Source: Cellulomonas sp. WB94
Lineage (GTDB): Bacteria > Actinomycetota > Actinomycetes > Actinomycetales > Cellulomonadaceae
DNA length: 64,000 nt
Assembly (NCBI RefSeq): GCF_003115775.1
Contig: NZ_QEES01000002.1
Coordinates: forward strand, 558,001-622,000
Direction of reading: 5' to 3'
Each line of letters opens with the position of its first letter. Within the stretch, counting starts at the first letter, position 1. This document shows, in pieces, positions 6,150 to 35,956 of the stretch. Under the pieces are notes generated by a model, which was not told the origin of the DNA, made no database searches, and saw only the letters and a program-made list of their open reading frames with translations. A program made the translations under genes and the position numbers.

Positions 6150-6956
6150 GTGACGGCCGTGCTGGCGACCGAACGACGGCGCAGGATTCTCGAGCAGGTG
6201 CGTGCCCACGGTGATGTGAGCCTCCGTGAGCTCGCGCAGTCCGTCCTCGCCTCCGAGGTGACGGTGCGTCGTGACCTGCGGGCGCTCGAGGAACAAGGAC
6301 TGCTCGACCGACGACGCGGCGGAGCGGTGACTCTGCCTGCCGCCGACCAGGCGACCGGTGGTGAACGTCCGGAGCAGGCGGCTGAGAAGTCGGCCATCGC
6401 ACGGCTGGCCGCAACCCTCGTGGCCGAGGGCGACGTCGTGGCCCTCGGGGCCGGGACGACGACGCAGCATCTCGCGGCTGCCCTGGTCGGCGTCCGGGCC
6501 CTCACTGTCGTCACGAACTCCCTGCTTGTCGGCGAGGCGCTCAGCCAGTCCACCGACGCCACCGTGCTGATCACGGGCGGGGCCCTGCGCGGCTCGACCT
6601 ACGGCCTCGTCGGACGCGGCGCGGAGGAGACCTTCGCCGACCTGCGCGTCCGGCGCGCCTTTCTGTCGGGGGACGGTGTCTCGAGCACGTGGGGGCTCTC
6701 GACGACGAGCTCGGACCAGGCCGGCGTCGACCGCATGATCACCGAGTCCGCCCAGGAGCTCGTCGTCCTGGCGGACCACACCAAGCTCGGCCACGAGTCG
6801 GCGTTCCAGACGGTGCCCCCGGACCGCATCACACACCTCGTGACCGACGAGCTCGCCGACCCCGCGCTCCTGGCCGCCTTCGTCGCGGCCGGTCTCCAGG
6901 TCCACGTCGCCCCCCTCGAGGGCGACGCGCTCGCCCGCTCCGAAGGGCCCCGGTGA
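6150..6956 (+). CDS. DeoR-family transcriptional regulator
   Basis: This is a single-HTH DeoR regulator of about 268 residues. The N-terminal winged helix carries SEVTVRRDLRALEEQGLLDR, followed by the sensor domain with GAGTT, VTNSLL and LADHTKLG motifs. It is a paralogue of the preceding tandem-HTH regulator. The start is a GTG at 6150 or 6159; the later one aligns best with the neighbour and neither has a clear Shine-Dalgarno site. The gene begins about 40 bp after its neighbour and its TGA overlaps the GTG of the following ATPase gene, so the three form one operon. Paired DeoR proteins beside one transporter suggest either two inducers or hetero-oligomers; both are inference. Confidence 0.88.
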   Translation: MTAVLATERRRRILEQVRAHGDVSLRELAQSVLASEVTVRRDLRALEEQGLLDRRRGGAVTLPAADQATGGERPEQAAEKSAIARLAATLVAEGDVVALGAGTTTQHLAAALVGVRALTVVTNSLLVGEALSQSTDATVLITGGALRGSTYGLVGRGAEETFADLRVRRAFLSGDGVSSTWGLSTTSSDQAGVDRMITESAQELVVLADHTKLGHESAFQTVPPDRITHLVTDELADPALLAAFVAAGLQVHVAPLEGDALARSEGPR

Positions 6957-8627: not shown

Positions 8628-11600
8628 TCAGGCCGTCGCGGCGAGCTGGGCGATCTCCGTGTCGCTCAGCACCCGGTCGAAGACCTTGACGTCATCGATC
8701 GCGCCATTCCAGAAGTCGCCGTCCTGGCCGGCCCACTTGGCCCGGCCGATGGACAACGAACCCGTGCTGACCCCGTCGACCCCTCCGACCGTCGTCCCTG
8801 CCGGCTGGCCATCGACGTAGAGCTTCACCTCGTCGGTGGCCTGGTTGCGGACGCCCACCAGGTGGTACCACCGGCCCAGCTCCGGGGTGATCGCGAGGCG
8901 TGCCCGGACCTCGCCCGGCAGGCTGAACGCGAAGCCACCCTGGCCGTACTGCAGGTAGAACGGGTTGGCCTGCGCCCGCCCGTCCTGGCTGAGGGCGGTG
9001 GCGTAGTTGCCCGGCAGGGCGTCGAGCCGCACCCACGCGGCCACCGTGTAGTCCTTCGTGGTGTCGATCACGGGGGCCTCGGTCTCCGCGAACCCGTCGA
9101 CACCGTTGAAGTCCAGCGCCGTCCCGTGCACGCCGCTGACCCACGTGGAGCCGCCCGACGTCGTCAGGGTGCTGGTCCCGCACCCGTCGGCGCCCGTGGT
9201 GCCGGTGCCCTCGTCGAGCGCCCAGCAGCCCTGACCGGGGTAGGTGACGGGCTGACCTGCGCTGGCACCAGCGGCGATGACCTTCTTGTTGATCGCCACG
9301 ACCTGCGCCGCGTCGACCTTCAGCGCCTTGCGGTCATAGGTCCACATGCCGTTGATCTCGTGCTCCAGGTCGGTGACCTGGGTGTACACCGAGCCCGACA
9401 GCTCGTGGGCGGCCTGCCAGAGGTAGAACGTCTCCGTGTTCTCCACGTAGCGCCGCGTCAGCAGGGCCTTGCTCTCGACGCCGCTGTAGATGGCCAGCGG
9501 GGTCCCCGGGTACATGTGTCCGGGGGTCCTGAGCGTGAAGCCACCGTGCTCGCCGTCCATGGCGGCGCGGGTCGCGTCCGGCAGCGCCGGGTCGGTGTTG
9601 TTGTAGTCGTGGTGGTCGATGATGTCCCCGGCGCCGGAGTCACCCTTGGAGTTGCAGCAGTTGACGCCGCTGTGGGCGTTGATCACCCGGGACGGGTCGT
9701 AGGCCATGACGTCCTTGACGATGTTGCCCGTCGCGGTGCGGTCCCACTCGCCCCAGCCCTCGTTGAACACCACGTAGCCGATGACCGACGGGTGGTTGTG
9801 GAGCTGGTCCATCATCTCCTTGCCCTGGGCGACGAAGTCCTGCTTCGCCTGGTCGGTCTGCCAGTTGCCGGAGACGAAGTCCTGCCACACGAGCATCCCG
9901 ATCTCGTCGGCGTGCTGGTACCAGCGGGCCGGTTCGACCTTGATGTGCTTGCGGACCGCGTTGAAGCCGAGGTCCTTCTGGGCCTGCAGGTCCCAGCGCA
10001 GGGCCGCGTCGGTCGGAGCGGTGTACAGCCCGTCGGGCCAGAAGCCCTGGTCCAGCATGGCGAGCGAGAAGATCGGCTTCCCGTTCAGGACGAGCTTCTG
10101 GTAGTCGCCGACCTGCTCGACGGCGATGGAGCGCATCGCGAAGTAGCTGTCGACGGTGTCCTTGACCTTCCCGTCCTTGAGGACGACCTGCAGCTTGTAC
10201 AGGTACGGGTCGTCAGGCGTCCACAGGTGCTGCTTCTTGACGGGAACGGCGAGAGGCGTGTTGACCGGCCCCTCGATGGCGCCCGCGTTGTTGCCGAGGG
10301 CGTCGTACGCGTGGATGACCACCGTGGCCCCCGCGCGCGCCGTCGACGAGTGGGCGGTCACCGTGAGCGTGCCCGTCGTGATGTCAGGCGTGAGGACCAG
10401 GTCGTCGATGGCCCGGTCGGGGACCGGCTCCATCCAGACCGTCTGCCAGATGCCCGAGGACGGCGTGTAGACGATGCCGCCCGGGTTGGTGCTCTGCTTG
10501 CCGATGCCCTGGTTGTCGCCGGTGGTGTCCGTGACCGCCACGACGATCTCCTGCGGGCCCGACGCGGTGAGGGCGTCGGTGATGTCCGCTGAGAAGGCCG
10601 TGTAGCCACCGCGGTGCGAGGCGACCTGGGTGCCGTTCACGTAGACGGTCGCGTCGTAGTCGACGGCCCCGAAGTTGAGCTTGAGCCGCTGACCGGTGCC
10701 GATCTTCCAGCCTGCCGGGACGGTCACGAGCCTGCGGTAGAACATGTGGTCCTCGTGGCGCTCGAGGCCCGAGAGCTGGGACTCGACGGGGTACGGCACG
10801 ATGATCTTCTCGGCGAGCGTCGTCCCGAACGGCGGCTGCTGGCCGGCGGTCGCACCGGCGAACTCCCACGGACCGTTGAGGTTGAGCCACTGGGTGCGCA
10901 CCTGCTGCGGGCGCGGGTACTCGGGCAGCGGGTGGTTCGGGTCGACGTCGTCGGCCCACTGCGTCTGCATGCGCAGCGTCGAGGCGTTCGTGGCGTTGCG
11001 CGTGATGCTCGGGACGAGGGCGCCACCGACCGCGAGGCCACCGGTGCCGTCGTACGAGAAGCGGACACGCTGGTTCGCGTAGACCTCGTCCTGCAGCGTG
11101 ATGACGACGATCGAGGCGTCGGCGGGGTCGAGCGCGACGGACGCGACCGGGTACGGCGTCGTGTCGACGGAGACCGCCAGGTGCGCAGCGGACGTCGCCA
11201 GGTCGGTGACCGGCTGGTCGAAGTCGGCGCGGAGCTGACGACCCGCGGTGTCGAGCGTCAGGTCGACCGGGTAGATCTCGAAGCCGGGCGGCGGGGTGAA
11301 GGCCGACGTCGGCACGATGGACTTGTCGATGCCCGGGCCGGACCAGCGCAGGAAGAGGTTCGCGCCGCCGATGTCCTGGAAGAGCTCCATGCGGAAGACG
11401 TGCTGGACGCCTGCCTCGAGGTGGACGACGGCCGAGGTCTGCTCCTTGTCCCAGTCCCCGACCCAGTGGTCGATGACCGGCTTGTCGTCGATCCACAGCC
11501 GGAAGCCGTTGTCGCCGATCGCGTAGAACGTGAAGTCCCCCGTGGCCGGAGCCTGGATCAGACCGGTCCAGCGGGCGGTCGTGTTCTCCGTCTGGTTCGT

Positions 11601-13267: not shown

Positions 13268-13294
13268 TTGAACCTACGACCTCTGGGTTATGAG
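13268..13294. repeat. Left attachment site (attL), 27-bp direct repeat of tRNA-fMet
   Basis: These 27 bases are identical to 35898-35924 inside the initiator tRNA gene, from the anticodon stem-loop to the T-loop (core CTCATAACCCAGAGG on the minus strand). Sequence identity breaks at both ends. A tyrosine integrase gene starts 170 bp to the right, so this is the typical end of an integrated element. Confidence 0.88.
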
Positions 13295-13410: not shown

Positions 13411-13433
13411 GTCTGCCCACATTCTGCCCACAT
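13411..13433. repeat. Left copy of a 23-bp subterminal repeat (possible integrase arm site)
   Basis: This 23-base sequence contains TGCCCACAT twice. It matches 35799-35821 at 22 of 23 positions and in the same orientation. It lies 116 bp inside attL, and its partner 76 bp inside attR, the place where tyrosine integrases bind through their arm-binding domain. The role is inferred from position. Confidence 0.5.
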
Positions 13434-13463: not shown

Positions 13464-14588
13464 ATGGCCTGGGTGACCAAGCGCCGGGCATCCGACGGAT
13501 CCCTGCACTACCAGGGTAGGTACCGCGACCCGTTCGGCGCCAAGCGCACGGTCGGCACGTTCCCATCGCACCGTCAGGCCCTCAAGGCCGCGAACCGCGC
13601 CGAGGGCACCGTCCTCGACGGCACCTGGCTGGACCCCCGCGCCGGCACCGTCACCTTCCAGCAGTACGCCGAGGAGGTCTGGCTGCCGTCGCGGCACCTC
13701 GAGGTCTCCACGCGCGCCGGGTACCGGTCCTACCTGCGCATCCACTTCGTGCCGTTCTTCGGGCACATGCCGCTGGCCCGCATCATGCCCTCGACGGTTC
13801 AGGCGTGGGTCTCCTATGCCGTCAGCAAGGGACTGTCGCCGCGGTCGGTCTTGAAGTACCACGTGATGCTGCACTCCGTCTTCGCCCGAGCGGTGCGCGA
13901 CCGGATCCTGGCGTTCAACCCGTGCGAGGCCACCGAGCTGCCGAAGGTCATCGCGAAGAAGTACCGCACCCTTACGCCCGACGAGTTCGACCGCCTCCTC
14001 GCCGCGATGCCCGACCGGTTCAAGGCGATGGTGCTCACCGACATCGAGACCGGGCTGCGCTGGGGCGAGCTCGTGGCGCTGCGACCGCGGCACATCGACT
14101 TCCTCCGGCGCACGGTGACCGTCGAGGAGACCATCGTCGAGATCTCCCGCAAGGACTCCCCCACCGGCGAACGCATGCTGTTCAAGCCGTACCCGAAGGA
14201 CGACGAGCCTCGGACCTTGCGGATCTCGCAGGATCTCCTCGACACCCTCGCGGCTCGGATCGCCGCACTCGGCCTCAGCCGCGACGACCTGCTGTTCCCC
14301 TCACGCGACATCGCCGGCGGCACTCCCCTGTCCCGCGCCACCTTCAACACTCGCTACTGGCACCCCGCCGTCAACGAGGCAGGTATCGACTTCCCGCTCC
14401 GCATGCACGACCTCCGACACGCCCACGCATCGTGGCTGCTGGCCGGCGGCGCCGATCTCGTGGCGGTCATGGAGCGCATGGGGCACTCGCAGATCATGAC
14501 GACGCAGAAGTACCTGCACACGCTGCCGGACGCGGACGACAAGGCGCTGGCGGCGTTCGAGTCCGTACGCGGGAGAGTGCGCCAGTGA
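13464..14588 (+). CDS. Tyrosine recombinase / phage-type integrase
   Basis: This 374-residue integrase should catalyse integration and excision of the surrounding element at the tRNA-fMet site. The N-terminal part (about 1-60) resembles an arm-binding AP2-like domain, residues about 62-160 a core-binding SAM-like domain, and the remainder is catalytic. The catalytic residues are visible: Arg199 (TGLRWGE), His315 and Arg318 (HDLRH), His341 (MGHSQ) and Tyr350 (TTQKYLHTL). AGGAGGT lies 9 nt before ATG 13464, which decides the start over an in-frame upstream alternative. Length is typical for actinobacterial element integrases. It reads away from attL, toward the element interior. Confidence 0.95.
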   Translation: MAWVTKRRASDGSLHYQGRYRDPFGAKRTVGTFPSHRQALKAANRAEGTVLDGTWLDPRAGTVTFQQYAEEVWLPSRHLEVSTRAGYRSYLRIHFVPFFGHMPLARIMPSTVQAWVSYAVSKGLSPRSVLKYHVMLHSVFARAVRDRILAFNPCEATELPKVIAKKYRTLTPDEFDRLLAAMPDRFKAMVLTDIETGLRWGELVALRPRHIDFLRRTVTVEETIVEISRKDSPTGERMLFKPYPKDDEPRTLRISQDLLDTLAARIAALGLSRDDLLFPSRDIAGGTPLSRATFNTRYWHPAVNEAGIDFPLRMHDLRHAHASWLLAGGADLVAVMERMGHSQIMTTQKYLHTLPDADDKALAAFESVRGRVRQ

Positions 14589-14755
14589 CCGTTCACAACA
14601 GCAAATTTGCATCGCTAAACCACGCCCATGCGCGAGACCACATCAACGCGTCGTGACCGCGGACACTTGCGCCTCGCAGGCTTTGTCTCGAAACGCAAAG
14701 CCGACGCGTAGCAACTACGCTTCGTGACTGAAAGCCGTGCCGCAGTCGTTGGAAT

Positions 14756-16873
14756 CTACGAGTGGGCGAACGGGTGGGATGGTCCCGCGTGACCCACGAC
14801 CACATCCTTGAGAATCCACTGCTCCACCATGCTCAACTGCGAAACAAAGCTAGCATCCGAGGCTAATCGCATTAGCGAATCGAGCAACTCCGCAACTCCG
14901 TCACCTCGCAGACCCATAGCGGACAGCTTCGCACCCAAGGGAGTGGGGACGCCATACTCTTCAAGATCCACAATTCCATTTGGGAGATAGAGAGACTCTA
15001 TCTGACGCAATGCAAACTCGTAGTTCGACCCACGCTCGCCAAGACTACCCGCCACTTCGTTCTGAATGCTCTGCATACCCCTGAGCATTGAGGGGATGGT
15101 AAAGCCCATCCAGTTGCGTTGGAACTTCAGAACCTCCCGAATGACGTCGCTTCGATCCATGCCGGGACGGGCATATCTCGATTGTTGATCAACCATGGAA
15201 CCGAAGTTCCATCCATTTACTCTTGCGTTCTGAAGCTGGCCCCACATCATGTCGAAATTGATGCCACGACGCTGCCGGCCCTCGAGGAGGGTATCGAACG
15301 CCAACTTCAGCGTCTGACGAAACTCAGCGGAGTCAGGGATACCGCTCCAGCCCAGTCGAGCGATCAGATCGCGTGATTCCCTCAATTCCTCGGCCGCCTG
15401 GATCTGCAAGTCTGGGTCAAGGCCGCGATTCTTGCGAATAGTCGCCACACTAAGCGAGGTCTGCTCAAAGACGTGGTGAGCCCTCTCCAGGGCGTCGTCG
15501 TCGAGCTCGTAGGGCTGAAGCTGAATCAGTGTGGCGAGCGAAGCCATTCGTGACTGAGACTCGATCGGAATGTCAACGACAGTCTCCACGGCCGCGGGAG
15601 GCGTCGTGTACGTCACCACGTGCCCGACAAAGTGCCGGAACATCCTACCCGCGCGACCCCTGATGTTGCTGAACGTGAAGAAGTCAAGGAGCTGGCCGTC
15701 GATCTTCTTTTCGAAGACTACGACATTGCGTGCGGCCGTATTGACGCCCTCAATGAGTGTCGAAGTGCAGACAAGGTGTGCGATGTGCCCTTCGTTGAAC
15801 AAGCGAACCATGATTCTTTGTATGCTCCGCGGCAGCGGGCCCGTATGTACACCGACGCCGCGAGCGAGCGCTACTGGAACATTCCACGCGTCGTCATAGT
15901 TGGACGAGATCCAGTCGGCCACCAGCGCAGCCAAGCCATCGCCGGGCAGCGGACCGCTTATGTCGCCAATGGCCAATGCCAGATGCTCTGCCTTCTCAGG
16001 TGAACCCGTGAAGAAGAGAGTCGAGCCAGGTAGACCACCGTCGTCGACGAGCCCGAGAAGGTCATCGAGTTGATCTGGCACTGCTGAGCGATCGTCAACG
16101 TCGACCGCAACCGTTCGGAAATCGGTAGTAACCAATTGTGTCCGGAGATCCTCGCCAATAGCCTCATCGAGGCTGTCTACATTGGGTCCAATTAGATAGT
16201 ACTGCGCCCCCGTCGCACGGAGCCGCTTCCAGGCGATATTCAGAAGCGACCGACGCTGACCGAAAGGCTCGCTAGAGCCTAACTTGTAGAACTCATCGAT
16301 CACGAAGAAGTCTACATCAGGCAACTGGTCGAACTCAAGGAAACGTTCCTGCGTCAGAACGAATACATTTCGATCGCCGAGCGACTGACTCGCGTGAGTG
16401 ATGATTGTGTAGTTGCCTCGAAAGCGCGCGAGTCTCCGTCGTGTCTCGTCGATGAGAGCAATGGTTGGAACGATCAGCACAATCTGCGACCAATGGTTAC
16501 TTGCGACCAACGCATCCAGAATCGCCGACTTGCCGAACGAGGTCGGCGCTGAGAGTATAAGGCTCTCGCCGTCCATGAGGCGAGAGAATACGTGCTGCTG
16601 CATCGCGTGAAATGTGAATCCCTCTTCCGCAAGACTCTCCGGGGAGTGGAACTCGAGCGCGAGCGCTTCGGATGTACCCTCTCTTGAACTCGCGGACATG
16701 TACGGGAACAACCCATAGTGCGCGCAGAGGGAGTCGACGACTGGCAACTCGGGCCCGGAGGAACCATACGAGTCGAGAAATCGAATGAGACGGTCGCGAC
16801 CAGCGGCCCGCCCATCCTCGGCGCGGGATAGAGCAGCAATCGCCTTCAATTCCGCAAAGACCTCCACGACCAT
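14756..16873 (-). CDS. hamB: Hachiman defence protein HamB (superfamily 2 helicase)
   Basis: This 705-residue protein has superfamily-2 helicase motifs: a Walker A-like APTSFGKSA (109-117), a DExx-box VIDEFYKL with DEFY at 193-196, and motif VI NIRGRAGRM (403-411). The C-terminal 250 residues are helical with no motif I know. It follows the DUF1837 gene by 8 bp on the same strand, which is the defining order of a type I Hachiman anti-phage system. Known Hachiman complexes pair a helicase that surveys DNA with the HamA nuclease effector. AGAGGAGGGT abuts the ATG; a GTG two codons later would have better spacing. Base composition is visibly less GC-rich than flanking genes, suggesting recent acquisition. 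Confidence 0.85.
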   Translation of the reverse strand: MVVEVFAELKAIAALSRAEDGRAAGRDRLIRFLDSYGSSGPELPVVDSLCAHYGLFPYMSASSREGTSEALALEFHSPESLAEEGFTFHAMQQHVFSRLMDGESLILSAPTSFGKSAILDALVASNHWSQIVLIVPTIALIDETRRRLARFRGNYTIITHASQSLGDRNVFVLTQERFLEFDQLPDVDFFVIDEFYKLGSSEPFGQRRSLLNIAWKRLRATGAQYYLIGPNVDSLDEAIGEDLRTQLVTTDFRTVAVDVDDRSAVPDQLDDLLGLVDDGGLPGSTLFFTGSPEKAEHLALAIGDISGPLPGDGLAALVADWISSNYDDAWNVPVALARGVGVHTGPLPRSIQRIMVRLFNEGHIAHLVCTSTLIEGVNTAARNVVVFEKKIDGQLLDFFTFSNIRGRAGRMFRHFVGHVVTYTTPPAAVETVVDIPIESQSRMASLATLIQLQPYELDDDALERAHHVFEQTSLSVATIRKNRGLDPDLQIQAAEELRESRDLIARLGWSGIPDSAEFRQTLKLAFDTLLEGRQRRGINFDMMWGQLQNARVNGWNFGSMVDQQSRYARPGMDRSDVIREVLKFQRNWMGFTIPSMLRGMQSIQNEVAGSLGERGSNYEFALRQIESLYLPNGIVDLEEYGVPTPLGAKLSAMGLRGDGVAELLDSLMRLASDASFVSQLSMVEQWILKDVVVGHAGPSHPFAHS

Positions 16874-16881
16874 ACCCTCCT

Positions 16882-17748
16882 CTAGAGCGCCTGATACGCG
16901 TCGAGCTTCTGATGCATCAGTGTGAGAAAATCGTCCTTGCTCCTAAGAGGGACCAGAATGAGTTGAATGGCAATCTTCATGCGACTGGCGATCTTGTCGG
17001 TGTCAAAGCGATCCCAGATCGCGCGAGCTTCCTCCTCGAGTTCTGCGACGTACTCTGGACATATCTGATTCCAGGCGTTGACCGCGCCGCTGTCATACGT
17101 CACGAGCACGGGCATAACGAGGCTCTCCGATATCTCGTCCAGACTCCTCGCGTCGTCAAGCATTTGATGCACCGCTTCCGAATGCGGCCACGACCGATCA
17201 AGCTTGTTTGTGATTGCTACGAACTCGCGCCTGAGGAACTTGCTCGCGAGATGATCGTTCAGCGAAGCTATCGCCTCTGAGATCGCCGACGAGGGGTCCT
17301 TGTAGAACTTCGCCTCGCCAAGCCATATCTCGATCGTCTCCGACGCTTCGACAATGTGCACAGAGTCAAACCCTTTGACCGTGTCATTGTCACTATCCTT
17401 GTAGTAGATCTTGCTTACCGCCGGCTGTGCACCGAAGAAGTCGATGAGCGCCGCGTGGAGGATAAGCTCGCCGAACTCGCCACGACGTCGATACTTGTCC
17501 GTCGAGTACACCATCTGAGCAGCGCGTTTGAGCGACCGGGCGGCGTTCTCGCCATCGATGCTGTTGTACTCGGTGTAGCTCAGCGCGAAGGACGCAAGGT
17601 GACGCTGGAAGAGGTCGTCGACGAGTGCAGGAGCCCTCCACGCCGACTGTTCGTAGCCAGCGCAGAGGACTGTCAGCGAGGGATCCAGTCCAAGATCCTG
17701 GACACGGACTCTGAGAACACTCTGCATTGCGGCCCCCGTGTTCGGCAT
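16882..17748 (-). CDS. hamA: Hachiman defence protein HamA (DUF1837 nuclease)
   Basis: This 288-residue protein matches the DUF1837 pattern. A RRGEFGELIL segment lies at 88-97, then GFDSVH (126-131) and WLGEAKFY (142-149). Asp128, Glu145 and Lys147 fit a PD-(D/E)xK nuclease core, with Glu94 as a possible helix residue. HamA is the effector of Hachiman systems; when released by HamB it degrades DNA and stops phage growth at the cost of the cell. The start is ATG 17748, or the ATG seven codons later, which has a GGGGG stretch before it. It is the first gene of a two-gene operon and shares the lower GC content of hamB. Another DUF1837-associated helicase system is the only real alternative. Confidence 0.85.
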   Translation of the reverse strand: MPNTGAAMQSVLRVRVQDLGLDPSLTVLCAGYEQSAWRAPALVDDLFQRHLASFALSYTEYNSIDGENAARSLKRAAQMVYSTDKYRRRGEFGELILHAALIDFFGAQPAVSKIYYKDSDNDTVKGFDSVHIVEASETIEIWLGEAKFYKDPSSAISEAIASLNDHLASKFLRREFVAITNKLDRSWPHSEAVHQMLDDARSLDEISESLVMPVLVTYDSGAVNAWNQICPEYVAELEEEARAIWDRFDTDKIASRMKIAIQLILVPLRSKDDFLTLMHQKLDAYQAL

Positions 17749-17914
17749 TGTCGAGGTGATGCTCGCAGCCTGCGCCAGGAATTCTTGGGTCTCCGAGCGC
17801 GTGTCGCCGAGAATTCTGAAGTCGGCCGCTTGGAACCTCGATGGCGGTCTGCCCGTGCACGACCGCCGCGGGCGATCGCCGACATGGCGTCCAGCTAGCC
17901 TCAGGCAGCGAGGG

Positions 17915-18529
17915 TCAGCATCCGTAGATGGTCGGGGACACCGGTCCCAGGCCGTCTATGTCAGCCGCGTCTGCGCCCAGGTCCTTCCTCATCGCTGCCA
18001 GAAGCTCCGTGGCAGCCTGAGATCTGCGCTGCCCTTCCTCGTCCACATCCGAACTCTCACGCAGCGCATCGAGAGCGGCACGGTCGTACCGAACGTTCAC
18101 GGCCTGCATGGAGCCGAAGTACTCAATCGCTCTCGTCAGTTCCACGAAGAGGCTCGCCGCGGTGACGACATCCGCAGGTGCGAACAGACGCATCTCCGCG
18201 AGCGCTTCCGCACAGCGGGTTAGGCCTTCTGCAATGGCCATCGGCCCGTCGTACTGTGCGACTTCCTCGGTGTCGATAGGACGTGAACCGTCAGTCCCGT
18301 ACCGCAGATAGTGCCATCGAGCGCGCTGGTGCTCTGCACAGTCGTCAGCGCCTGCGAGGAATCGGAGGTACACATCCCTGCGCAGTTCCAACCATCTCTC
18401 CCCGACGCGGACCTCGCGCGACTCGACGGCGCGCTCGCGTTCTCCCCGGCGCTGCCACACTTGGGTGAAGACCGTGCCGCTGAGCCCAGCGCCGATCCCG
18501 GCAAGAGCAACCCACGAACTGCCATCCAT
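17915..18529 (-). CDS. Hypothetical protein with N-terminal membrane segment
   Basis: This 204-residue protein begins with a probable transmembrane or signal-anchor helix (ALAGIGAGLSGTVFTQVW, about 8-25). A charged Arg/Glu-rich stretch that could form a coiled coil follows, then a mostly helical, Ala/Glu-rich body ending in PTIYGC. I recognise no domain. Actinobacterial mobile elements often carry such single-pass proteins without known roles. It lies on the same strand as the Hachiman pair, 167 bp upstream, so co-transcription is possible, but nothing shows that it belongs to the system. Confidence 0.65.
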   Translation of the reverse strand: MDGSSWVALAGIGAGLSGTVFTQVWQRRGERERAVESREVRVGERWLELRRDVYLRFLAGADDCAEHQRARWHYLRYGTDGSRPIDTEEVAQYDGPMAIAEGLTRCAEALAEMRLFAPADVVTAASLFVELTRAIEYFGSMQAVNVRYDRAALDALRESSDVDEEGQRRSQAATELLAAMRKDLGADAADIDGLGPVSPTIYGC

Positions 18530-19447
18530 GCGTTGAACCTAGCGAAGCAGGTGCCAGTGCGTGTGGACCCCAGCGGTGGCCTACCTGTGGCTGCAGGTGC
18601 GGAAGACTGCAAGCGAGAAAGTCGCGAGCGGTCTTTGGTGTGCTGCCTGACCTTGAACCGCCAGTGACTCGGCCGTCCCGGGGCACGGGTTCGGTCGACT
18701 CGGCTGGCGGTGCCGTGGCTCGTGCCTGGCATCAAGAGTCGCCTCGGGACGTTGGGGCGCATGCGTCATTCGGACTGCGTGCAAGAGGAGTCCGCCGCCC
18801 GTCATTGGTCTGTCATCGGTTGCCAAGCGTCGATCGACGGACGGGCACCTGCCGCACGCCGAGGGCTCTCGTCGCCGTCTGACCGCCGGCACCCGCGCTC
18901 CGATGCAAGTCGGCACTTCAGCTCTCGCTCCGCTCGCTGAACGGCAGCGACAGCCCGAGGGGCCGTGCACCATGGAGGTCCACCTGAAGACCGGGCCGAC
19001 GCCTACACCGGTTACGGCCTCGACGGCGGTCCGTAGCAGGTTCGTGGTTACGGCACGCCCGCGACGGCTCCGGAATCGGAGCGGTGACGTCTCGGCTCGC
19101 AACACCGGGTCGAGGCGAGACACACTGCACCAGGGCGGCCTGAGTATCGGAGGCGTGAGCGATGGCGAGCCTTGTCAGGCGAATATGGCACCATGCGTTG
19201 GCCTGCTGGCCTTTCCCTCGGAGACCGACCGACGTGCCACAGCAGCCCTACTATCTCCCGGCGTTCGATCACCGAATCCCGAAGGGCTGGGCGTCCTACG
19301 GTCCCGAAGACTCCCGCAGACGATGGCGGACGGCACGGCATTGCCGTCGCTGACATCGCCGACCTCGCACGACGCCCCCTGGTTCGGCGGCACTGTGTGG
19401 ATTCCGTGTTGGGTGGGTGATTCCCGGCGTGAAATTGCGCCCTGCCA
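18530..19447. other. Gene-poor stretch left of the IS1380 element
   Basis: About 0.9 kb without a gene I can support. Open frames exist on both strands but are Arg/Pro/Ser-rich, lack ribosome sites and contain no domain. The longest one on the plus strand (from 18903) would end exactly at the IS1380 insertion, so a truncated former gene cannot be excluded. Confidence 0.4.
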
Positions 19448-19451
19448 CTAG

Positions 19452-21143
19452 CCCGGATCTTTCATGGAGCTCGGTCGGTCTGGAGCGCGGCGTCGTTGTC
19501 GGCGTTCGGTGCTGATTGTGGCATCGGGGTGCGACGAAGGGCCGCGTGTCGTCGCGGTGGGCGCCGGTTCCGGCCGGTCGTGCGGGTGCTGGTGGCGGTC
19601 AGAGACGAGGTCGACGGCTCAGGGCGGGGCGGGTAGGGCGGTCAGTCGTTGGTGACCGGTGGTCAGGACCTCGGCCCAGGGGTGGGTGTCCTTGACGTGC
19701 AGGATCAGGGTGCGGGCGTGCCGGGCCAGCGTCGCGGGCACGTGCAGGAGCCGGGTTCGTAGGCGTTTGGGTTCCCAGCGGCGGGCCGCGGTGGTGGCGA
19801 ACGCGAGCAGCTGGGTCCAGGCCGTCAGGTCCGAGGCCAGTGCCACGATCGCGCACCAGATCTGGTTGGCGCCGAAGTTCTTCAGCGGCAGGTTCCGCAG
19901 TCCTGTGTCTTTGGCGGCGCGGATCCGGTCCTCGCAGCGGGCGCGGCGGCGGTGCCGCAGCTCCAGGTCCTGCAGCTGCCCGGTCGTGGTGTTCGTGACG
20001 AACGCGGTCAGCCGGTAGCCGCCCGCGTCGTCCAGGCGCCCCTGGGACACCCCGGCTCCGGGGTGGGGTCGTTCGCGGCGCACGATCACGCGCATGTGGG
20101 CCGGCCATCCGCCCAGGTGGCCGCCGGCGGCGAGCAGGTCGGTGATGTCGGCGACGTCCGCGCCGTCGCGGGCCGCACCGTCGCCGTTGAGGGCCGCCGT
20201 CCAGGCCGCCGGGGGGATCTGGGCGTAGATGCCCTGCATGTGGGCCCACGGCAGGGTCCACCCGATCGAGTAGGAGACCCCGCGGCCGGCCAGCCAGGTG
20301 ACGTAGTCCTTCGTCCCGCCACCGCCGTCGGTGCGGATCAGGACCTTGCGACCTGGGCGGGAGGGGTTGATCCCGGGGACAGCGGCCAGCGCGGCGCGGG
20401 TGACCTCGATGTGGTCCGCGGCGGTGTTCGAGCCCGCGTTGCCCGCCCGCAGGCTCATCGCCAGCAGCTCGCCGGTTCCCTCGGCGCCGTGGTCGGCGAA
20501 CGCGCACAGCGGGTGGAACCCGAAGCCCCGCTTGAACGTCGGGGCGGCTTGATCCTTCTCCGAGTGGGCGGTGATCAGCGTGGCGTCCAGGTCGATCACC
20601 AACGGCGCGGCAGCGCTGATCTGGTGCGTCGGGGCGTGCTCGCCGGCCGCGGCCCAGACCGCGGCCCGGGCCTGCTTCCTGGCCCGGGCGATCTGGGCCA
20701 GGACCTTGTCCGCATCGACCCCCAGCGCCGCCACCGCCCGGGAGACCGTCGCCTCGGAGGCCACCGACCCGAACAGCTCTGCCTCGCCGCGCAGCAGCGC
20801 GGCGTCGGCCAGGCAGTCCCCGCCCAGCACCAGCGCCACCGCGAGATCAGTCAGGACCTTCGCGGGGTCGTGCACCGCGAACGGTGAGCGCCACCGGTCC
20901 AACGCCTGCGACAGCGCGACGTCCAGACCCGCGGCCCGCACCGTCTGGGTCAGCAGCACCCCGCCGGCCGATCCGGCCGCGGCCACCGGCGCAGCATCGA
21001 CTCGGACACGCGGGTAGAACCCGATAGCGTTCACCTGGAAGGTGCTCCTCGAACTGGTCTGATCTGTCCCTCGCAAGACACATCATCCCAGGTCAGGAGC
21101 ACTTTCCTCGTCTACGCCACGACCGCGCCGTGAAATCTCCAGG
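19452..21143. mobile_element. IS1380-family insertion sequence, complete
   Basis: The element carries one transposase gene. Its ends are imperfect inverted repeats: left 19452-19467 (CCGGATCTTTCATGG after the first base) and right 21128-21143, matching at about 12 of 16 positions. CTAG flanks both sides (19448-19451 and 21144-21147) and is best read as a 4-bp target duplication. Two 5'-end remnants of a related element at 27.4-27.7 and 31.0-31.3 kb also end at CTAG. Confidence 0.8.
19619..21076 (-). CDS. IS1380-family transposase
   Basis: This DDE transposase of 485 residues appears full length. It has the family N-terminus GFYPRVRVDA, the first catalytic region LVIDLDATLITAHSEK at about 173-188, and IRTDGGGGTKDYV near 245. 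The C-terminal third contains the RCEDRIRAAKDTGLRNLP region expected to carry the final acidic residue. It fills most of the 1.7-kb insertion sequence and reads toward the left end. No frameshift is seen, so the element may be active. An AGGTG-containing leader precedes the ATG. Confidence 0.93.
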   Translation of the reverse strand: MRGTDQTSSRSTFQVNAIGFYPRVRVDAAPVAAAGSAGGVLLTQTVRAAGLDVALSQALDRWRSPFAVHDPAKVLTDLAVALVLGGDCLADAALLRGEAELFGSVASEATVSRAVAALGVDADKVLAQIARARKQARAAVWAAAGEHAPTHQISAAAPLVIDLDATLITAHSEKDQAAPTFKRGFGFHPLCAFADHGAEGTGELLAMSLRAGNAGSNTAADHIEVTRAALAAVPGINPSRPGRKVLIRTDGGGGTKDYVTWLAGRGVSYSIGWTLPWAHMQGIYAQIPPAAWTAALNGDGAARDGADVADITDLLAAGGHLGGWPAHMRVIVRRERPHPGAGVSQGRLDDAGGYRLTAFVTNTTTGQLQDLELRHRRRARCEDRIRAAKDTGLRNLPLKNFGANQIWCAIVALASDLTAWTQLLAFATTAARRWEPKRLRTRLLHVPATLARHARTLILHVKDTHPWAEVLTTGHQRLTALPAPP

Positions 21144-21718: not shown

Positions 21719-22087
21719 CTACTCGGCTTGCTCTCCGGAGGCCGAGTTCGCAGCCACGATCGCCTCGCACGCGGCGCGCAGCCGGGCGATGGGGTCGCCA
21801 ATGGTGGCGCGGACGATCTGCGGGTCGAGTTTGTAGTAGTGGTGTCCGATGAGGTCGCGCATGCGGGCGATATCCGACCACGGGACCTCGGGGTGGGCAT
21901 CGCGCAGACCCGGCGAGAGGGCCTTGACTGCCTCGCCGATCGTGAAGACGCGGTAGTGGATCGCGTCGAGTGCGACCAGCTCCACTGCGGCGTCTTGGGG
22001 GTGGGCGCGCAGGAGTGCGTCGTCGCGGTCGACGGCGTCGATGGACTCGACGATGTCGCGCAGCCGCTGGTCGTCGGTGCGGCTCAC
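21719..22087 (-). CDS. hepT: HepT-like HEPN-domain toxin (DUF86)
   Basis: This 122-residue HEPN protein resembles HepT, the toxin partner of MntA in a type VII toxin-antitoxin system. The signature R-X4-H-X-Y is present as Arg77, His82 and Tyr84 in ARMRDLIGHHYYK. Known HepT proteins cut RNA through this motif and are silenced when MntA adds AMP to the tyrosine. The ATG overlaps the stop of the upstream mntA-like gene as ATGA, so antitoxin is made first and translation is coupled. Length is normal for the family. A role in element stability or phage defence is likely but not shown. Confidence 0.88.
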   Translation of the reverse strand: MSRTDDQRLRDIVESIDAVDRDDALLRAHPQDAAVELVALDAIHYRVFTIGEAVKALSPGLRDAHPEVPWSDIARMRDLIGHHYYKLDPQIVRATIGDPIARLRAACEAIVAANSASGEQAE

Positions 22088-22593
22088 AGTGGCACCGCCT
22101 CGGCCAGAGCGTTCTGCGCGACGTGCGGGGCCAGCGCGTCCTGCGGCACGACGTCGACCCGCTCCCCCAGCATCGCCGAGAGCTCGTCCTGCAAGGCCGC
22201 GATGGGGAACAGCCCCCTCGTGCGGACGGCGAGGTCGACCAGCAGGTCGATGTCGGACTCGGGCCGATCCTGCCCCCGGGCCACCGAACCGAACACGCGG
22301 ACGTTCGACGCCCCGTGGCGGTGGGCTGCCCGGCGGATCCGGTCCCGGTTGAGCCGCAGCTTGGCCATCCGCGGCGTGCGCACGTCCAGGCGGCGCGGCG
22401 AGACCTCGGCAACCAGCTCGAGCCGGGATCCCATCGCCGCCAGGAGTCGGTCGAGCGTCTCCACCGACGGCGAGCTCGCACCCGACTCGTACCTCGACAC
22501 CGCCGGCTGCGACGTGCCGGCGCGGGCCGCCAGGGCGTCCTGGCTCAGACCAGCGCCCTCGCGCGTTGTCCGGATCAACGTTGCGGCATCCAC
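22084..22593 (-). CDS. mntA: MntA-like nucleotidyltransferase antitoxin fused to an XRE-type HTH
   Basis: This 169-residue protein joins a Cro/C1-type helix-turn-helix (residues 6-60; LSQDALAARAGTSQPAVSRYE) to a minimal nucleotidyltransferase domain. The catalytic pattern is GSVARG (102-107) then SDIDLLVD (113-120), the G-S-X10-D-X-D motif of MNT antitoxins. It should AMPylate and neutralise the HepT-like protein encoded just downstream with a 4-bp overlap. The HTH suggests that it also represses its own promoter. Plain MntA proteins have about 100 residues and no HTH, so this is a two-function variant, seen in some other actinobacteria. Confidence 0.87.
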   Translation of the reverse strand: MDAATLIRTTREGAGLSQDALAARAGTSQPAVSRYESGASSPSVETLDRLLAAMGSRLELVAEVSPRRLDVRTPRMAKLRLNRDRIRRAAHRHGASNVRVFGSVARGQDRPESDIDLLVDLAVRTRGLFPIAALQDELSAMLGERVDVVPQDALAPHVAQNALAEAVPL

Positions 22594-22775: not shown

Positions 22776-22789
22776 CACCCCTATGGGTG
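22776..22789 (+). repeat. Conserved 14-bp inverted repeat before the relaxase remnant
   Basis: The sequence CACCC-CTAT-GGGTG is a 5-bp inverted repeat with a 4-nt spacer. It is kept exactly at 31468-31481, before the intact relaxase gene, although nearby bases differ. It could be a relaxase recognition or nicking structure, or a control site; I cannot tell which. Confidence 0.4.
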
Positions 22790-22905
22790 AGGCATCGCTG
22801 CGGGACTGCCGACCGCGGACTGTGCATGTTGCGGGCATCCGCGCCTACCTGCTGTTGACGGCGCCCAGTCGTGACGGCGCCCAGTCGGGGGAGGTGTTGG
22901 CGGTG

Positions 22906-23440
22906 ATGTCGATGCACAAGCTGGTCGCGGGTGACAGGCATGCCTACCTGACCCGCCAGGTCGCTGCAGGCGATGCCGGCCTGGAGCCGGGTGCGTCGCT
23001 CACCGCGTACTACGAGGCCACCGGCAAACCGCCCGGGCAGTGGTGCGGGGCGGGCCTGGCCGCCCTGGGCATCGAGCCGGCCCACCGGGTCCGGCCGGGT
23101 GACCGGGTGACCGAGGAGGCCATGGCCGCGGCGTTCCGCGACGGCCACGACCCCATCACCGGCGAACCCCTCGGTCGGGGCTTCGGGGGCGAGAGCCCGG
23201 TGGTGGGGTTCGATCTGACGTTCACGGCGCTGAAGTCCGTCTCGGTGCTGTGGGGCCTGGGCGACGACCCGACCCGCGCGGCCGTCTACGCGGCGCACCG
23301 GGCGGCCTTGGGCAGGCGTTGGCGTTCGTCGAGCACACGGTGGTGCGGACCCGGGTCGGTGACGGCGGGTGCCGGCAGGTGGCCACGCGCGGGATGATCG
23401 CTGCGGCGTTCGACCACTGGGACACCCGGGCCGGCGACCC
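22906..23440 (+). pseudogene. Truncated, frameshifted copy of the MobF relaxase gene
   Basis: From MSMHKLVAGD on, this sequence is a near-copy of the first 178 codons of the intact relaxase at 31580-34477; similarity already begins near 22748. A single T is missing after 23312 (GGGCAGG against GGGTCAGG), which shifts the frame. Similarity stops abruptly at 23440 inside the codons preceding the HTH catalytic histidines. It therefore lacks the active site and helicase and cannot act. It records either a second related element or a tandem duplication, later cut by insertions. Confidence 0.85.
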
Positions 23441-29632: not shown

Positions 29633-30175
29633 CGTTGGAGCCCCCTTCGGTGGGGGCAGCCCACCTGGTGGCCGACGATGGCGCCCCCACCCTTCGCCGG
29701 CATTCGCCACGCTAGACGCGGTCGACCCTGTGCGGGCCCTGAGAGTCAAGAATCCCCCGAATGGCCCACTGACCTGGGCATTCGTCCAGCACCAGGCGAA
29801 TCCGCGGTGCGAACCCCACACAGAGCAGATCGCTGAAGAGCCCCGCACGGGCGTGTCGCCGGCGAGGCCGGGGTGGGACCCTACTCGGCTCTTGCCGAGG
29901 ACTCCCCGAGCCGTCGGCGCTCTGGCGTGGGTGCGCTAGACCGACCCCAGACATGAAGCAGCCCCAGGCTGCCGCAGCAACACCTGGGGCCCCGCAACCC
30001 GTCGCCTCAAGAGGGGGGGAGGTCGCCGTTGCTTCCGCAACAAGTGGACAACGCATGAGCACGCAGGGACCAGCTTCGGGGGAGTGCGCACGGCCGGCGC
30101 CGTTCCCTCGTCCAGAGCCGCGGCCTTGGCCCGAGATTGCACCACGGCATTGAGCCTGTCGGGCAGACTGGTGAG
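29633..30175. other. Intergenic stretch between divergent cargo genes
   Basis: I see no supported gene in these 543 bases. Just upstream of the nuclease gene, GTGGGGGC and GCCCCCAC (within about 29651-29692) form an inverted repeat. At 29962-29989 the arms CCCCAGG and CCTGGGG form another hairpin, which could end leftward or rightward transcripts. Promoters of both flanking genes should lie here. Confidence 0.45.
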
Positions 30176-31312: not shown

Positions 31313-31579
31313 CCTCCACCGCCGCGGCCCTGCCGGCCTGCCGTTGACCCAGCCGCACCAGATAGCGCCTCGGATGCCTCACGACTCCGGGGACGTCCGG
31401 GCGTAGCCGAGCTGAGCCGGATCAGCCAGGTCTCGCTCCTGCAGCCCGGTGTTGCGCCCATCGCGGACACCCCTATGGGTGAGGCGTCGCTGCGGACCGG
31501 CGGCTGCGGGCTGGATGTTGCGGGCTGCGTCGCCTACCTGCTGTTGACGGCGCCCGGTCGGTGGGAGGTGTTGGCGGTG
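31313..31579. other. Region upstream of the relaxase gene, candidate oriT
   Basis: This 267-bp stretch has no separate gene I can support. It contains the inverted repeat CACCC-CTAT-GGGTG at 31468-31481, conserved before the relaxase remnant at 22776-22789. Transfer origins of MobF systems often lie next to the relaxase gene, so the origin is most likely here. The nick site cannot be defined by reading alone. Confidence 0.4.
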
Positions 31580-34477
31580 ATGTCGATGCACAAGCTGGTC
31601 GCGGGTAACGGGTACGCCTACCTGACCCGGCAGGTCGCTGCGGGCGATGCCGGCCTGGAACCTGGTGCGTCGCTCACCGCGTACTACGAGGCCACCGGTA
31701 ACCCGCCGGGGCGGTGGTGCGGGACAGGCCTGGCCGCCCTGGGCATCGAGCCCGCCCACCGGGTCCGGGCCGGCGACCGGGTGACCGAGGAGGCGATGGC
31801 GGCGGTGTTCCGCGACGGCCACGACCCCGTCACCGGCGAACCCCTCGGCCGGGGCTTCTCGGGCGAGGCCCCGGTGGTGGGGTTCGATCTGACGTTCACC
31901 GCGCTGAAGTCGGTGTCGGTGCTGTGGGGCCTGGGCGACGACCCGACCCGGGCGGCGGTCTACGCCGCACACCGGGCGGCCTTGGGTCAGGCGTTGGCGT
32001 TCGTCGAGCACACGGTGGTCCGGACCCGGGTCGGTGACGGCGGGTGCCGGCAGGTGGGCACGCGCGGGATGGTCGCGGCGGCGTTCGACCACTGGGACAC
32101 CCGGGCCGGCGACCCGAACCTGCACACGCATGTCGTGCTCGCCAACAAGGTCCAGGGCCCCGACGGGTTGTGGCGGTCCCTGGACGGCAAGGCCGTCTAC
32201 GCCGCGGCCGTCACGGTCTCCGAGCTGTACGACACCCTGCTGGCCGACGAGCTCGCCCGGCGCCTGCCCGTCGGATTCTCCCGGCGCGAGCGTGGGCCAC
32301 GGCGCAACCCGGCGTTCGAGGTCGACGGCATCGACGACGACGTGCTGGCCCTGTTCTCCGCCCGCGCCGAGCAGATCCACGGCGCCGAGCTCGACTGGGC
32401 CGCCACCTTCGCCGCCGAGCACGGGCGCGAGCCGACCCGCATCGAGACGACCCGCGCCCGCCAACACCTCGCCCGGGCAACCCGCCCACCCAAGGTCGTG
32501 CGCCCGCTGCGGGACCTGCGGGCGGACTGGGCGAACCGGGCCCGCGCCCTGACCGGCCTCGAGCCCGTCGACCTGGCAGCCCGGGCGCTGGCCGGCACCT
32601 ACGGGCGGGCGTTGCACGCGCACGACGTCGGCCCCGAGGTCCGCGCCGCCATGGTCGCGCAGGTCGTCGAGGAGGTCTCCACCAAACGGTCGATCTGGAC
32701 GACCTGGAACCTCGGCGCCGCCGCGCTCCGGGCATCGAAGCCGCTGCGGATGGCCTCCCCCACCGAACGCCTGCGCCTGCTCAACGACCTGACCGTCTCG
32801 GCCGAGGCGGCGTGCGTGCACCTGGACGACACCCGCGACCCCGACCGGCGCCGCATGGGTGAGTCCCTGTTCACCTCCACCGAGCTCCTCGCCGCCGAAC
32901 AGTCCCTCATCGACGCCGCCACCACCCCCGCGCACCTCCCCCGCCAGCTCGGCGACCTGACCAGCGCCTCGGTGCGGACACGACTGGCCCTGGACACCCT
33001 CACCGGCGACCAACGCATCGCCGCCGAGGCGATCTTGACCTCACCGCACCTGCTTGACGCCCTCGTCGGACCCGCCGGGTCAGGCAAGACCACCACTCTG
33101 GCCGCGGTCGCCGTGACGTGGCGCAGCACCTGCGGACCCGTGCTGGGCCTGGCCCCGTCGGCGACCGCCGCGCACACCCTGCAACGCTCCCTGGGGGTGG
33201 CGTGTCAGACGACCGCGAAGTGGCTGTATGAGTCTGTCGGACCCGGCGCCCACGGTCGCGCCGTCACCTACGCCCACGCCGTCCAGGCCGAAGCGATCGC
33301 CACCGACGTCTTCGCTCTCCGGGACGCTCGCGCGCTGCAGGCACGCACCCGGGCCGAACAGGACCGGTGGCGGCTGGCTCCGGGGCAGCTGGTCATCATC
33401 GACGAGGCGTCCCTGGCCGACACCCGCACCCTGGCCGCGCTCGTCGCCCAAGCCCGCGCCGCCGACGCCAGGGTCCTGCTGGTCGGGGACCACCTGCAAC
33501 GCGGATCGGTCGACGCCGGCGGGGCGTTCGCGATGCTCGCCCGCCGCGGACCCACCGCCGAACTCACTTCCCTGTGGCGATTCACCCACCCGTGGGAAGC
33601 CCGCGCCAGCCTCGAGTTGCGCCGCGCCCACCCGAGCGTCCTGGACACCTACGACGCCCACGGTGCCATCACCGGCGGCACCCGCGACCAGATGCTTGCC
33701 GCCGCCCTGACCGGCTGGACCGACGCCCGAACCCAGGGCCACACGGCCGTCCTGCAGGCCGCCGACAACCACACCGTCCGCGACCTCAACAACGCCGCCA
33801 GGGCCGCTGGGATCCGCGCCGGGACCGTCACCCGCCAGGGCGTCGAGCTGCACGACGGACTCACCGCCGGGGTTGGCGACCGCGTCGTCACCCGCCACAA
33901 CCACCGCCACCTGCACACCCCCGACGGGTTCGTCCGCAACGGCGCCCTCTGGGACGTCGCCGCCATCGGTCGCGACGGGTCCCTCCACGTCCGGCCCGCC
34001 AGCGCGCACGGTCGCCGCGACGACCGGGCCGTCGTCCTGTTGCCCGCCGCCTACGTCGCCGAGCACGTCGAGCTCGGCTACGCCACCACCACCGCGCGCA
34101 CCCAAGGCATCACCGTCGACCAGACCCACACCATCGCCGCCCCGGGCATGGCCCGCGAAGACCTCTACGTCGGGATGTCTCGCGGCCGCGACCTCAACCG
34201 CGCCTACGTCATCACCGAACCCACCGCCGACGAGTGCCTGCCCGACCGAGCCCAGCCGTCGCCATCGGCCCTCGACATCCTCCGCACCATCCTCGCCACC
34301 TCACGCGCCGAACAGAGCGCTACCGAGACCTGGGAGGCCTACCACCCCAACCAGCCACCGCCCATCCCGCCGCTCCACCCGGAACAGTCGCGTCCGAGGT
34401 CGGCCATGTCCACCGGCTTCAGCAGTCCGAGCTACCCCCGGGCTCCATCGCCCGACGGACCGGTCCTCAGCAGGTGA
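31580..34477 (+). CDS. MobF-family conjugative relaxase-helicase (TraA/TrwC-like)
   Basis: This 965-residue protein nicks and unwinds DNA for conjugative transfer. The N-terminal TrwC-like relaxase domain (about 1-320) begins MSMHKLVAGNGYAYLTRQVA, with the Tyr residues expected to attack DNA. Metal-binding His171, His182 and His184 lie in FDHWDTR and NLHTHVVLANK. The helicase part has Walker A GPAGSGKTT (497-505) and Walker B IIDEAS (Asp608, Glu609). A UvrD_C_2-like YATTTARTQGITVDQTH segment lies near the end. GGAGG precedes a GTG (31577) and the ATG (31580); family members start at MS(I/M)HKL. It is the only transfer gene found in the element, so it probably relies on another plasmid's secretion system. 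Confidence 0.93.
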   Translation: MSMHKLVAGNGYAYLTRQVAAGDAGLEPGASLTAYYEATGNPPGRWCGTGLAALGIEPAHRVRAGDRVTEEAMAAVFRDGHDPVTGEPLGRGFSGEAPVVGFDLTFTALKSVSVLWGLGDDPTRAAVYAAHRAALGQALAFVEHTVVRTRVGDGGCRQVGTRGMVAAAFDHWDTRAGDPNLHTHVVLANKVQGPDGLWRSLDGKAVYAAAVTVSELYDTLLADELARRLPVGFSRRERGPRRNPAFEVDGIDDDVLALFSARAEQIHGAELDWAATFAAEHGREPTRIETTRARQHLARATRPPKVVRPLRDLRADWANRARALTGLEPVDLAARALAGTYGRALHAHDVGPEVRAAMVAQVVEEVSTKRSIWTTWNLGAAALRASKPLRMASPTERLRLLNDLTVSAEAACVHLDDTRDPDRRRMGESLFTSTELLAAEQSLIDAATTPAHLPRQLGDLTSASVRTRLALDTLTGDQRIAAEAILTSPHLLDALVGPAGSGKTTTLAAVAVTWRSTCGPVLGLAPSATAAHTLQRSLGVACQTTAKWLYESVGPGAHGRAVTYAHAVQAEAIATDVFALRDARALQARTRAEQDRWRLAPGQLVIIDEASLADTRTLAALVAQARAADARVLLVGDHLQRGSVDAGGAFAMLARRGPTAELTSLWRFTHPWEARASLELRRAHPSVLDTYDAHGAITGGTRDQMLAAALTGWTDARTQGHTAVLQAADNHTVRDLNNAARAAGIRAGTVTRQGVELHDGLTAGVGDRVVTRHNHRHLHTPDGFVRNGALWDVAAIGRDGSLHVRPASAHGRRDDRAVVLLPAAYVAEHVELGYATTTARTQGITVDQTHTIAAPGMAREDLYVGMSRGRDLNRAYVITEPTADECLPDRAQPSPSALDILRTILATSRAEQSATETWEAYHPNQPPPIPPLHPEQSRPRSAMSTGFSSPSYPRAPSPDGPVLSR

Positions 34478-35255: not shown

Positions 35256-35558
35256 CTAGCCATTGACCCGCTGCTGCTTGACCTCGCGGATGAGGGCCGC
35301 GAGCTCAGGGATGACGCGGGCTTCACGGTCGAGCGACTCGAAGACCTGCACGGCCTCGCGCGTGGTCAGCTGCATCACGCGCTGCTCCATCAGAACGGTC
35401 CGCGAACGCTCCATCGCGGCGCCGAGGACGAAGGACGTGACGTCTTGCTGCTGCGCCGCCGCCGCGTCTCGTAGGGTCTCAAGGGCCTCAGGAGAGATCC
35501 GCATGTTCAGGCGCGCTGTTCGTTCGACCGACGCTGCGGTGCGGCTCGTCATGGTCAT
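35256..35558 (-). CDS. DUF1778/TacA-like ribbon-helix-helix antitoxin, apparently orphan
   Basis: This protein of 98-100 residues has the DUF1778 pattern RTARLNMRISPEALETLRDAA (beta strand then helices), followed by QDVTSFVLGAAMERSRTVL. The C-terminal helix (REAVQVFESLDREAR) resembles the toxin-binding tail of TacA. Such antitoxins normally precede a GNAT acetyltransferase toxin, but nothing lies between its stop and the neighbouring membrane-protein gene. Start is ATG 35558, or ATG 35552, which has AGAGGGG at better spacing. It may act as a stand-alone repressor or counter a toxin elsewhere. Confidence 0.75.
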   Translation of the reverse strand: MTMTSRTAASVERTARLNMRISPEALETLRDAAAAQQQDVTSFVLGAAMERSRTVLMEQRVMQLTTREAVQVFESLDREARVIPELAALIREVKQQRVNG

Positions 35559-35798: not shown

Positions 35799-35821
35799 GT
35801 CTGCCCACATTTTGCCCACAT
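35799..35821. repeat. Right copy of the 23-bp subterminal repeat
   Basis: This matches 13411-13433 at 22 of 23 positions and in the same orientation, with TGCCCACAT twice. It lies 76 bp inside attR. Position and repetition fit an arm-type integrase site. Confidence 0.5.
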
Positions 35822-35827
35822 CGACGA

Positions 35828-35865: not shown

Positions 35866-35882
35866 ACCTGCTGTCTTACTAG

Positions 35883-35956
35883 TAGCGGGGGTAGGATTTG
35901 AACCTACGACCTCTGGGTTATGAGCCCAGCGAGCTACCGAGCTGCTCCACCCCGCG
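35883..35956 (-). tRNA. Initiator tRNA-fMet (anticodon CAU)
   Basis: A 74-nt tRNA is read on the minus strand: 5' CGCGGGG acceptor strand and a D-arm with GAGCAGCTCGGTAGCTC. The anticodon arm GGGCTCATAACCC has three consecutive G-C pairs, and the T-arm is GTAGG-TTCAAAT-CCTAC. The first base pair is mismatched (C1 with U72) and the G-C pairs lie next to the anticodon loop; both are hallmarks of initiator tRNA rather than elongator tRNA-Met. CCA is not encoded. The element's attR lies within the gene, yet the whole tRNA is preserved, as expected when the element restores the 3' part. Confidence 0.95.
35898..35924. repeat. Right attachment site (attR), inside tRNA-fMet
   Basis: This is identical over 27 bases to 13268-13294. 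It covers the anticodon stem-loop through the T-loop of the tRNA gene. Integration here leaves a functional tRNA because the element supplies the bases to its left (35883-35897). Confidence 0.88.

Follow-up and report, generated by a model that had tools for sequence, protein, structure and literature searches.

Gene pair and its protein families

The window, that is, the whole stretch of 64,000 nucleotides of Cellulomonas sp. WB94 analysed in this work, harbors two adjacent genes that raise the following question: do they form a complete Hachiman defence system and, if so, to which branch of Hachiman does it belong and which protein would be its nuclease? A previous inspection of the letters (hereinafter the sequence-only reading) had claimed that a DUF1837 gene exhibiting a PD-(D/E)xK core (Asp128, Glu145 and Lys147) is followed, 8 bp later, by a superfamily 2 (SF2) helicase gene, that both genes are intact, and that together they represent Hachiman. 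All these points found support in our analyses. Indeed, hamA (16882..17748, minus strand, 288 codons) is predicted to code for a stand-alone HamA (DUF1837) nuclease, on the basis of PF08878, of the PADLOC model HamA2 and of the alignments with its relatives, and hamB (14756..16873, minus strand) for a 705-aa SF2 helicase of the AbpB branch, on the basis of the PADLOC model HamB2, of the solved AbpB chain (8zue_B) and of the junction sequence. Both the ORF list and the sequence place hamA before hamB on the same strand, with a gap of 8 bp (16874-16881); the two ORFs are full length and contain no internal stops.

The 288-residue HamA matched the Pfam profile PF08878 (HamA/DUF1837) with 187 bits (E 6e-55, cut-off 25), and the 24 PADLOC models that it matched at E up to 1 were all HamA models, the best one being HamA2 (377 bits). 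As to the helicase that adjoins it, HamB models were the best PADLOC matches (HamB2, 704 bits; HamB1, 636 bits; then 312 bits) and AbpB was the best solved relative, and the protein does not fall into an unrelated restriction or repair family. The presence of two strong profile matches in the right gene order excludes, at the sequence level, that the identity of hamA and hamB is due to chance. One HamA in all is encoded by the source genome.

The predicted active site of HamA is conserved. In the 288-codon frame the protein carries the D-GExK motif (D128, G144-E145-A-K147), named as the HamA nuclease motif in PMC12799240. The predicted catalytic Asp128 lies in a GFD motif (codon at 17365..17367, minus strand), and the Glu145-Ala-Lys147 codons, within LGEAK, at 17308..17316 (minus strand); D128, E145 and K147 are invariant in the alignment (A3) of 41 stand-alone HamA proteins. 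Similarly, HamB exhibits the motifs APTSFGKS (residues 109-116), VIDEFYKL (191-198), TSTLIEGVNT (370-379) and RGRAGRM (405-411); motif reading and alignment place the codon of the Walker A Lys115 at 16529..16531 and those of the motif II Asp193-Glu194 at 16292..16297 (both on the minus strand), and these three residues are invariant across six aligned rows. Concerning the true start of hamA, it is probably Met8 (17727), seven codons later than annotated, which would give a protein of 281 aa; this start is favoured since the closest relative within the family (L003) starts there and a GGGGG stretch precedes Met8.

The search of solved structures bears on the branch to which the system belongs. 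HamB matched AbpB (8zue_B) with 308 bits over residues 23-646; the second solved relative (9wh1_B, 72 bits) is labelled DNA polymerase theta, but the chain with which it is paired, 9wh1_A, resembles AbpA/HamA. HamB of the ECOR31 system (8vx9_B) was matched with 36 bits only. A single-sequence search with HamA revealed no significant relative among the solved structures (best E 0.41); the HamA profile matched 8zue_A and 9wh1_A, followed by chance matches. Judged from these matches, the window helicase belongs to the AbpB branch. On the whole, we assign a probability of about 0.9 to the reading that the two genes make up a complete Hachiman system, with a helicase of the AbpB branch and an unfused HamA whose active site is intact, on an element apparently integrated in a tRNA-fMet gene, and that this system presumably works by an ECOR31-type mechanism.

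The proposed element at tRNA-fMet and the likely origin of the pair

The sequence-only reading had also placed the pair inside a tRNA-fMet element and had claimed that its base composition is unlike that of the rest of the element; both ideas are in agreement with our data, the former on account of the att repeats, the integrase and the inner repeats described below. We propose an element of 22.7 kb, whose borders are taken solely from a perfect 27-bp direct repeat (D10, plus strand) forming the left att core (13268..13294) and the right att core (35898..35924), the latter within tRNA-fMet; a 28-base version of the repeat, searched with up to 3 mismatches, occurs at two genome sites only. The tRNA gene (35882..35956, minus strand; ARAGORN, Rfam RF00005) is an intact initiator-type tRNA-Met (CAT), exhibiting in its sequence an unpaired first base and a GGG/CCC anticodon stem, which we take to be the hallmarks of an initiator.

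Just inside the left att core lies a gene for a tyrosine integrase (13464..14588, plus strand; 374 aa from the ATG at 13464, with a longer ORF from 13290; PF00589, 91 bits), which gave one weak match (L110) in the loci fetched for comparison. A search for 22-base repeats revealed a double repeat, TCTGCCCACATTYTGCCCACAT, of which the window holds two copies, one lying 117 bases inward of the left core (TCTGCCCACATTCTGCCCACAT, 13412..13433, plus strand) and the other 76 bases inward of the right one (TCTGCCCACATTTTGCCCACAT, 35800..35821, plus strand), and 100 shuffles gave none; the two copies may represent arm-type sites of the integrase. A TrwC relaxase-helicase gene (31475..34477, plus strand; PF08751, 288 bits) suggests mobilisation of the element.

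A shorter, apparently truncated copy of the relaxase gene lies at 22783-23397 (plus strand), the repeats shared with the full-length one being 88-96% identical, and the element holds several transposase genes. These features, together with the finding that no sigma-70-type promoter pattern occurs in 14550-18600 (0 found vs 1.3 expected in shuffles), might point to a broken or silent remnant within an element eroded by insertion sequences. However, both ORFs are full length with intact motifs, the hamB ATG is preceded by a strong Shine-Dalgarno-like stretch (AGAGGAGGG), and the G+C pattern over the codon positions of the two genes is of the coding type; hence, we consider a remnant improbable and retain the reading of an intact pair.

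As to the integration site, the right flank and the tRNA are conserved in the four congeners examined, and the left flank exhibits short scattered matches (<300 bp) in four of six congeners and none in the other two. Being the left flank barely matched there, an empty tRNA-fMet site is not demonstrable among these six congeners. The left copy of the repeat stops before the 3' end of the tRNA, and the region just 3' of the tRNA (35824-35881), which a simple model gives to the element, resembles the tRNA terminator region of three of the four congeners. Our own reading is that the terminator might have been brought from a related host and that the left copy might have decayed, an idea that agrees with the paired inner repeats. 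One congener (L116) seemingly bears an insertion of about 3.7 kb at this tRNA-fMet, a 3' remnant of the tRNA being displaced (6778-6838); thus, other elements may use this site too.

The element embeds further genes. At 21719-22593 (minus strand), a HEPN (HepT-like) gene and a gene for an HTH-fused MNT nucleotidyltransferase overlap, forming a probable HEPN-MNT toxin-antitoxin pair; a TacA-type antitoxin domain is encoded at the right end (35256-35819, minus strand), and the gene at 28316-29848 (minus strand) codes for a protein of 510 aa whose C-terminal part matches a NucA/NucB-type DNase domain (27 bits vs a cut-off of 23.8). A match to the Rfam family Ms_IGR-7 (21037-21142, plus strand; 48.6 bits, cut-off 45) overlaps a DDE transposase gene (19619-21076) at its 5' end, as well as the repeats D4 and D6 (at least three copies in the element); what this sRNA family describes may in part be the end of an insertion sequence. 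A 204-aa ORF upstream of hamA (17915-18529) was considered as a third partner and left out of the system, since the fetched loci used for comparison contain no homologue of it at E 1e-6 and it has no family match (none in Pfam at E <0.08, nor in NCBIfam or PADLOC up to an E of 1); the search for a conserved third partner covered the window's own neighbouring genes only.

The G+C content of hamAB is 57.0%, vs 69.1% in the rest of the element and 72.8% in the window outside it, and 4 of 611 segments of the same size, taken in overlapping and non-independent steps of 100, are as low. At the third codon position the values are 0.66 (hamB) and 0.72 (hamA), whereas the integrase and two flanking genes reach 0.93-0.96; the pair is not alone in this respect, low values being shared by the 204-aa ORF (0.71), the TacA gene (0.75) and the DNase-domain gene (0.81). 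HamA was matched in 5 of the 221 genomes of the family, its own included, 3 of the matches being strong, by a single-protein query that may miss distant HamA; the single-protein query found it in none of the six other congeners. The low G+C content and this patchy occurrence suggest that hamAB might have arrived horizontally.

The same data allow one to weigh the idea that the helicase and the nuclease serve housekeeping DNA repair and not defence. The helicase does resemble repair proteins to some extent, its best NCBIfam matches being to Hel308-type models, even though these are weak, reaching 27-36 bits where the curated cut-offs lie at about 890-1220. However, genes found in so few genomes of the family and in none of the six congeners, low in G+C unlike the host and carried on a probable integrated element hardly fit a housekeeping role, which we regard as extremely improbable with respect to a defence function.

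Stand-alone and Cap4-fused HamA among the relatives

Searching one genome per species with the HamB alignment yielded 306 matching stretches, of which 240 encode a relative; the 80 best of these were retained, and the scan of viral contigs gave eight matches. In 92 of the 98 loci examined (97 fetched plus the window) there is an upstream ORF of 200 aa or more; the remaining six (L060, L078, L081, L088, L097 and L111) were dropped. Upstream ORFs were called HamA by position and alignment, with no profile for each row, and near-copies were kept (L052 and L104 have identical HamB). Stand-alone HamA proteins number 83, namely 82 rows under 450 aa plus L027, which was rejected as an extra fusion (725 aa) since its length is an upstream-start artefact and the ORF from 5150 matches HamA only; 81 of them belong to the AbpB helicase branch and two (L022 and L023) to the distant canonical one.

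The comparison revealed that Asp, Glu and Lys are all kept in 83 of 83 stand-alone HamA proteins, the window included and on the basis of the best 80 of the 240 relatives, vs none of the nine Cap4-fused ones, in which the three residues are never kept together. All nine fused proteins (534-560 aa) contain Cap4 (PF14130) according to Pfam. The two-gene layout is the same in relatives from several phyla; judging from these loci, the stand-alone pair occurs widely, and the one in the window is thus an ordinary member of the group. The nearest relatives among the best 80 of 240 belong to Cryobacterium and Glaciibacter (62-63% identity), with which the window HamB groups with 99% SH-aLRT support. 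Metabolic genes lie near their pairs (transketolase and ROK genes; genes for the ribonucleotide reductase small chain and an amine oxidase), and no shared third gene was found there among the window genes compared.

In the HamB tree, obtained with a quick method and omitting L055 and L078 (short HamB), the fused helicases fall into one supported group of 10 rows, apart from the window; the tenth row is L097, which bears an unfused label and whose hamA is cut by the end of the stored stretch. The label "fused" requires two changes on this tree; its base is unresolved and its root is placed at the midpoint only, so the tree does not indicate whether the ancestral state was fused or unfused.

According to PMC12278908, AbpAB belongs to a proposed Hachiman variant, and AbpA joins an N-terminal Cap4 nuclease to a HamA domain whose catalytic residues are inactive, for a reason that its authors called enigmatic. 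One might therefore ask whether the window pair is AbpAB proper, that is, an AbpB helicase with an AbpA in which Cap4 is the working nuclease. The helicase is indeed far nearer to AbpB than to the ECOR31 HamB (308 vs 36 bits), and plasmid relatives pair the same helicase type with Cap4-HamA fusions. Nevertheless, the window HamA does not match PF14130 in Pfam, it counts 288 aa vs the 534-560 aa of the fused proteins, its active site is intact vs that of the nine fused rows, and the fused helicases group apart from it; for these reasons AbpAB proper appears very improbable, and we maintain the reading of an unfused system.

Since loss of the HamA active site is confined, among the loci compared, to proteins with a fused Cap4, AbpAB would have arisen by exchange of the nuclease of a pre-existing Hachiman sensor, and the window would host an unfused AbpAB-related form, in which an AbpB-type helicase commands a live HamA; we give this evolutionary scenario even odds. 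The contrast between stand-alone and fused proteins fits the inactive HamA published for AbpA (PMC12278908) and the loss of the D-GExK motif in virtually all protease-HamA fusions (PMC12799240). If the scenario is true, the window pair might be used to ask whether one helicase can drive either nuclease. On the whole, the locus contributes a further Hachiman system that looks intact and is ordinary for this known defence family, borne on an actinobacterial element that may be mobilisable; its modest added value is evolutionary, namely the retention of D-E-K in all the stand-alone HamA proteins and in none of the Cap4-fused ones.

Possible mode of action and comparison with known systems

As reported in PMC12278908, HamAB is a heterodimer in which HamB holds HamA back as long as the DNA is intact; when a free single-stranded end is met, ATP is hydrolysed and the nuclease becomes active, with the degradation of cellular DNA (Tuck et al. 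2024). AbpAB, in turn, was reported to respond to phage Gp32 bound to single-stranded DNA and to DNA damage (PMC10732053). Given that both branches sense damaged or single-stranded DNA, our best guess is that the window pair might do the same, HamA itself being the nuclease. By analogy, the HamA-HamB complex would patrol DNA; a free single-stranded end would enter HamB and promote ATP hydrolysis, which, in turn, would unleash HamA and lead to the degradation of phage and host DNA. The infected cell would then die before phage release, a case of abortive infection. The ECOR31 HamAB from which this mechanism is drawn is distant from the window HamB (36 bits), and the closest studied relative, AbpAB, needs the Cap4 nuclease instead.

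Among known systems, the protease-nuclease Hachiman HamMAB, as described in PMC12799240, shares with the window pair the HamB-HamA sensing core and differs in that the window HamA has no trypsin-like domain in Pfam. PADLOC type II (HamABC) is defined by HamC, a DUF3223 protein encoded beside hamAB (PMC8565338). The window resembles it in that its best profiles are named HamA2 and HamB2 and in that HamC is encoded about 0.6 kb downstream of hamB in an Agromyces relative (L027) that shares the HamB clade of the window; in that locus, DUF3223 (HamC) and DUF3644 genes follow hamAB (8728-9441 and 9478-10545), and a TrwC relaxase homologue lies further on. However, type II was rejected for the window, PF11523 (DUF3223) having no match in the source genome. 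The same search was positive in 4 of 25 genomes (from 27 loci, of which L025 was left out and two share a genome); one of the four matches (L027) was shown to be next to hamB, and no match was obtained in 14 control genomes. By gene content, the window system would thus be of type I, despite the names of its profiles.

The ECOR31 HamAB (PMC12278908; PDB 8VX9) shares with the window pair the two genes, the stand-alone DUF1837 nuclease and the Ski2-like helicase partner. Its E138/K140 correspond to E145/K147 here, or to E138/K140 if Met8 is the start, the ECOR31 numbering being that of the paper and not of an alignment because the ECOR31 HamA is absent from the PDB matches of the window HamA, of the HamA profile and of the two canonical relatives. 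Their helicases differ, the ECOR31 HamB being a chain of 1174 aa vs the 705 aa of the window one. Lastly, the E. coli AbpAB (PDB 8zue) has a helicase of the same branch, alike over most of the protein, and a homologous HamA domain, as the match of the HamA profile to 8zue_A indicates. The difference lies in the nuclease: AbpA joins Cap4 to an inactive HamA, whereas the window HamA stands alone, with its predicted active site intact.
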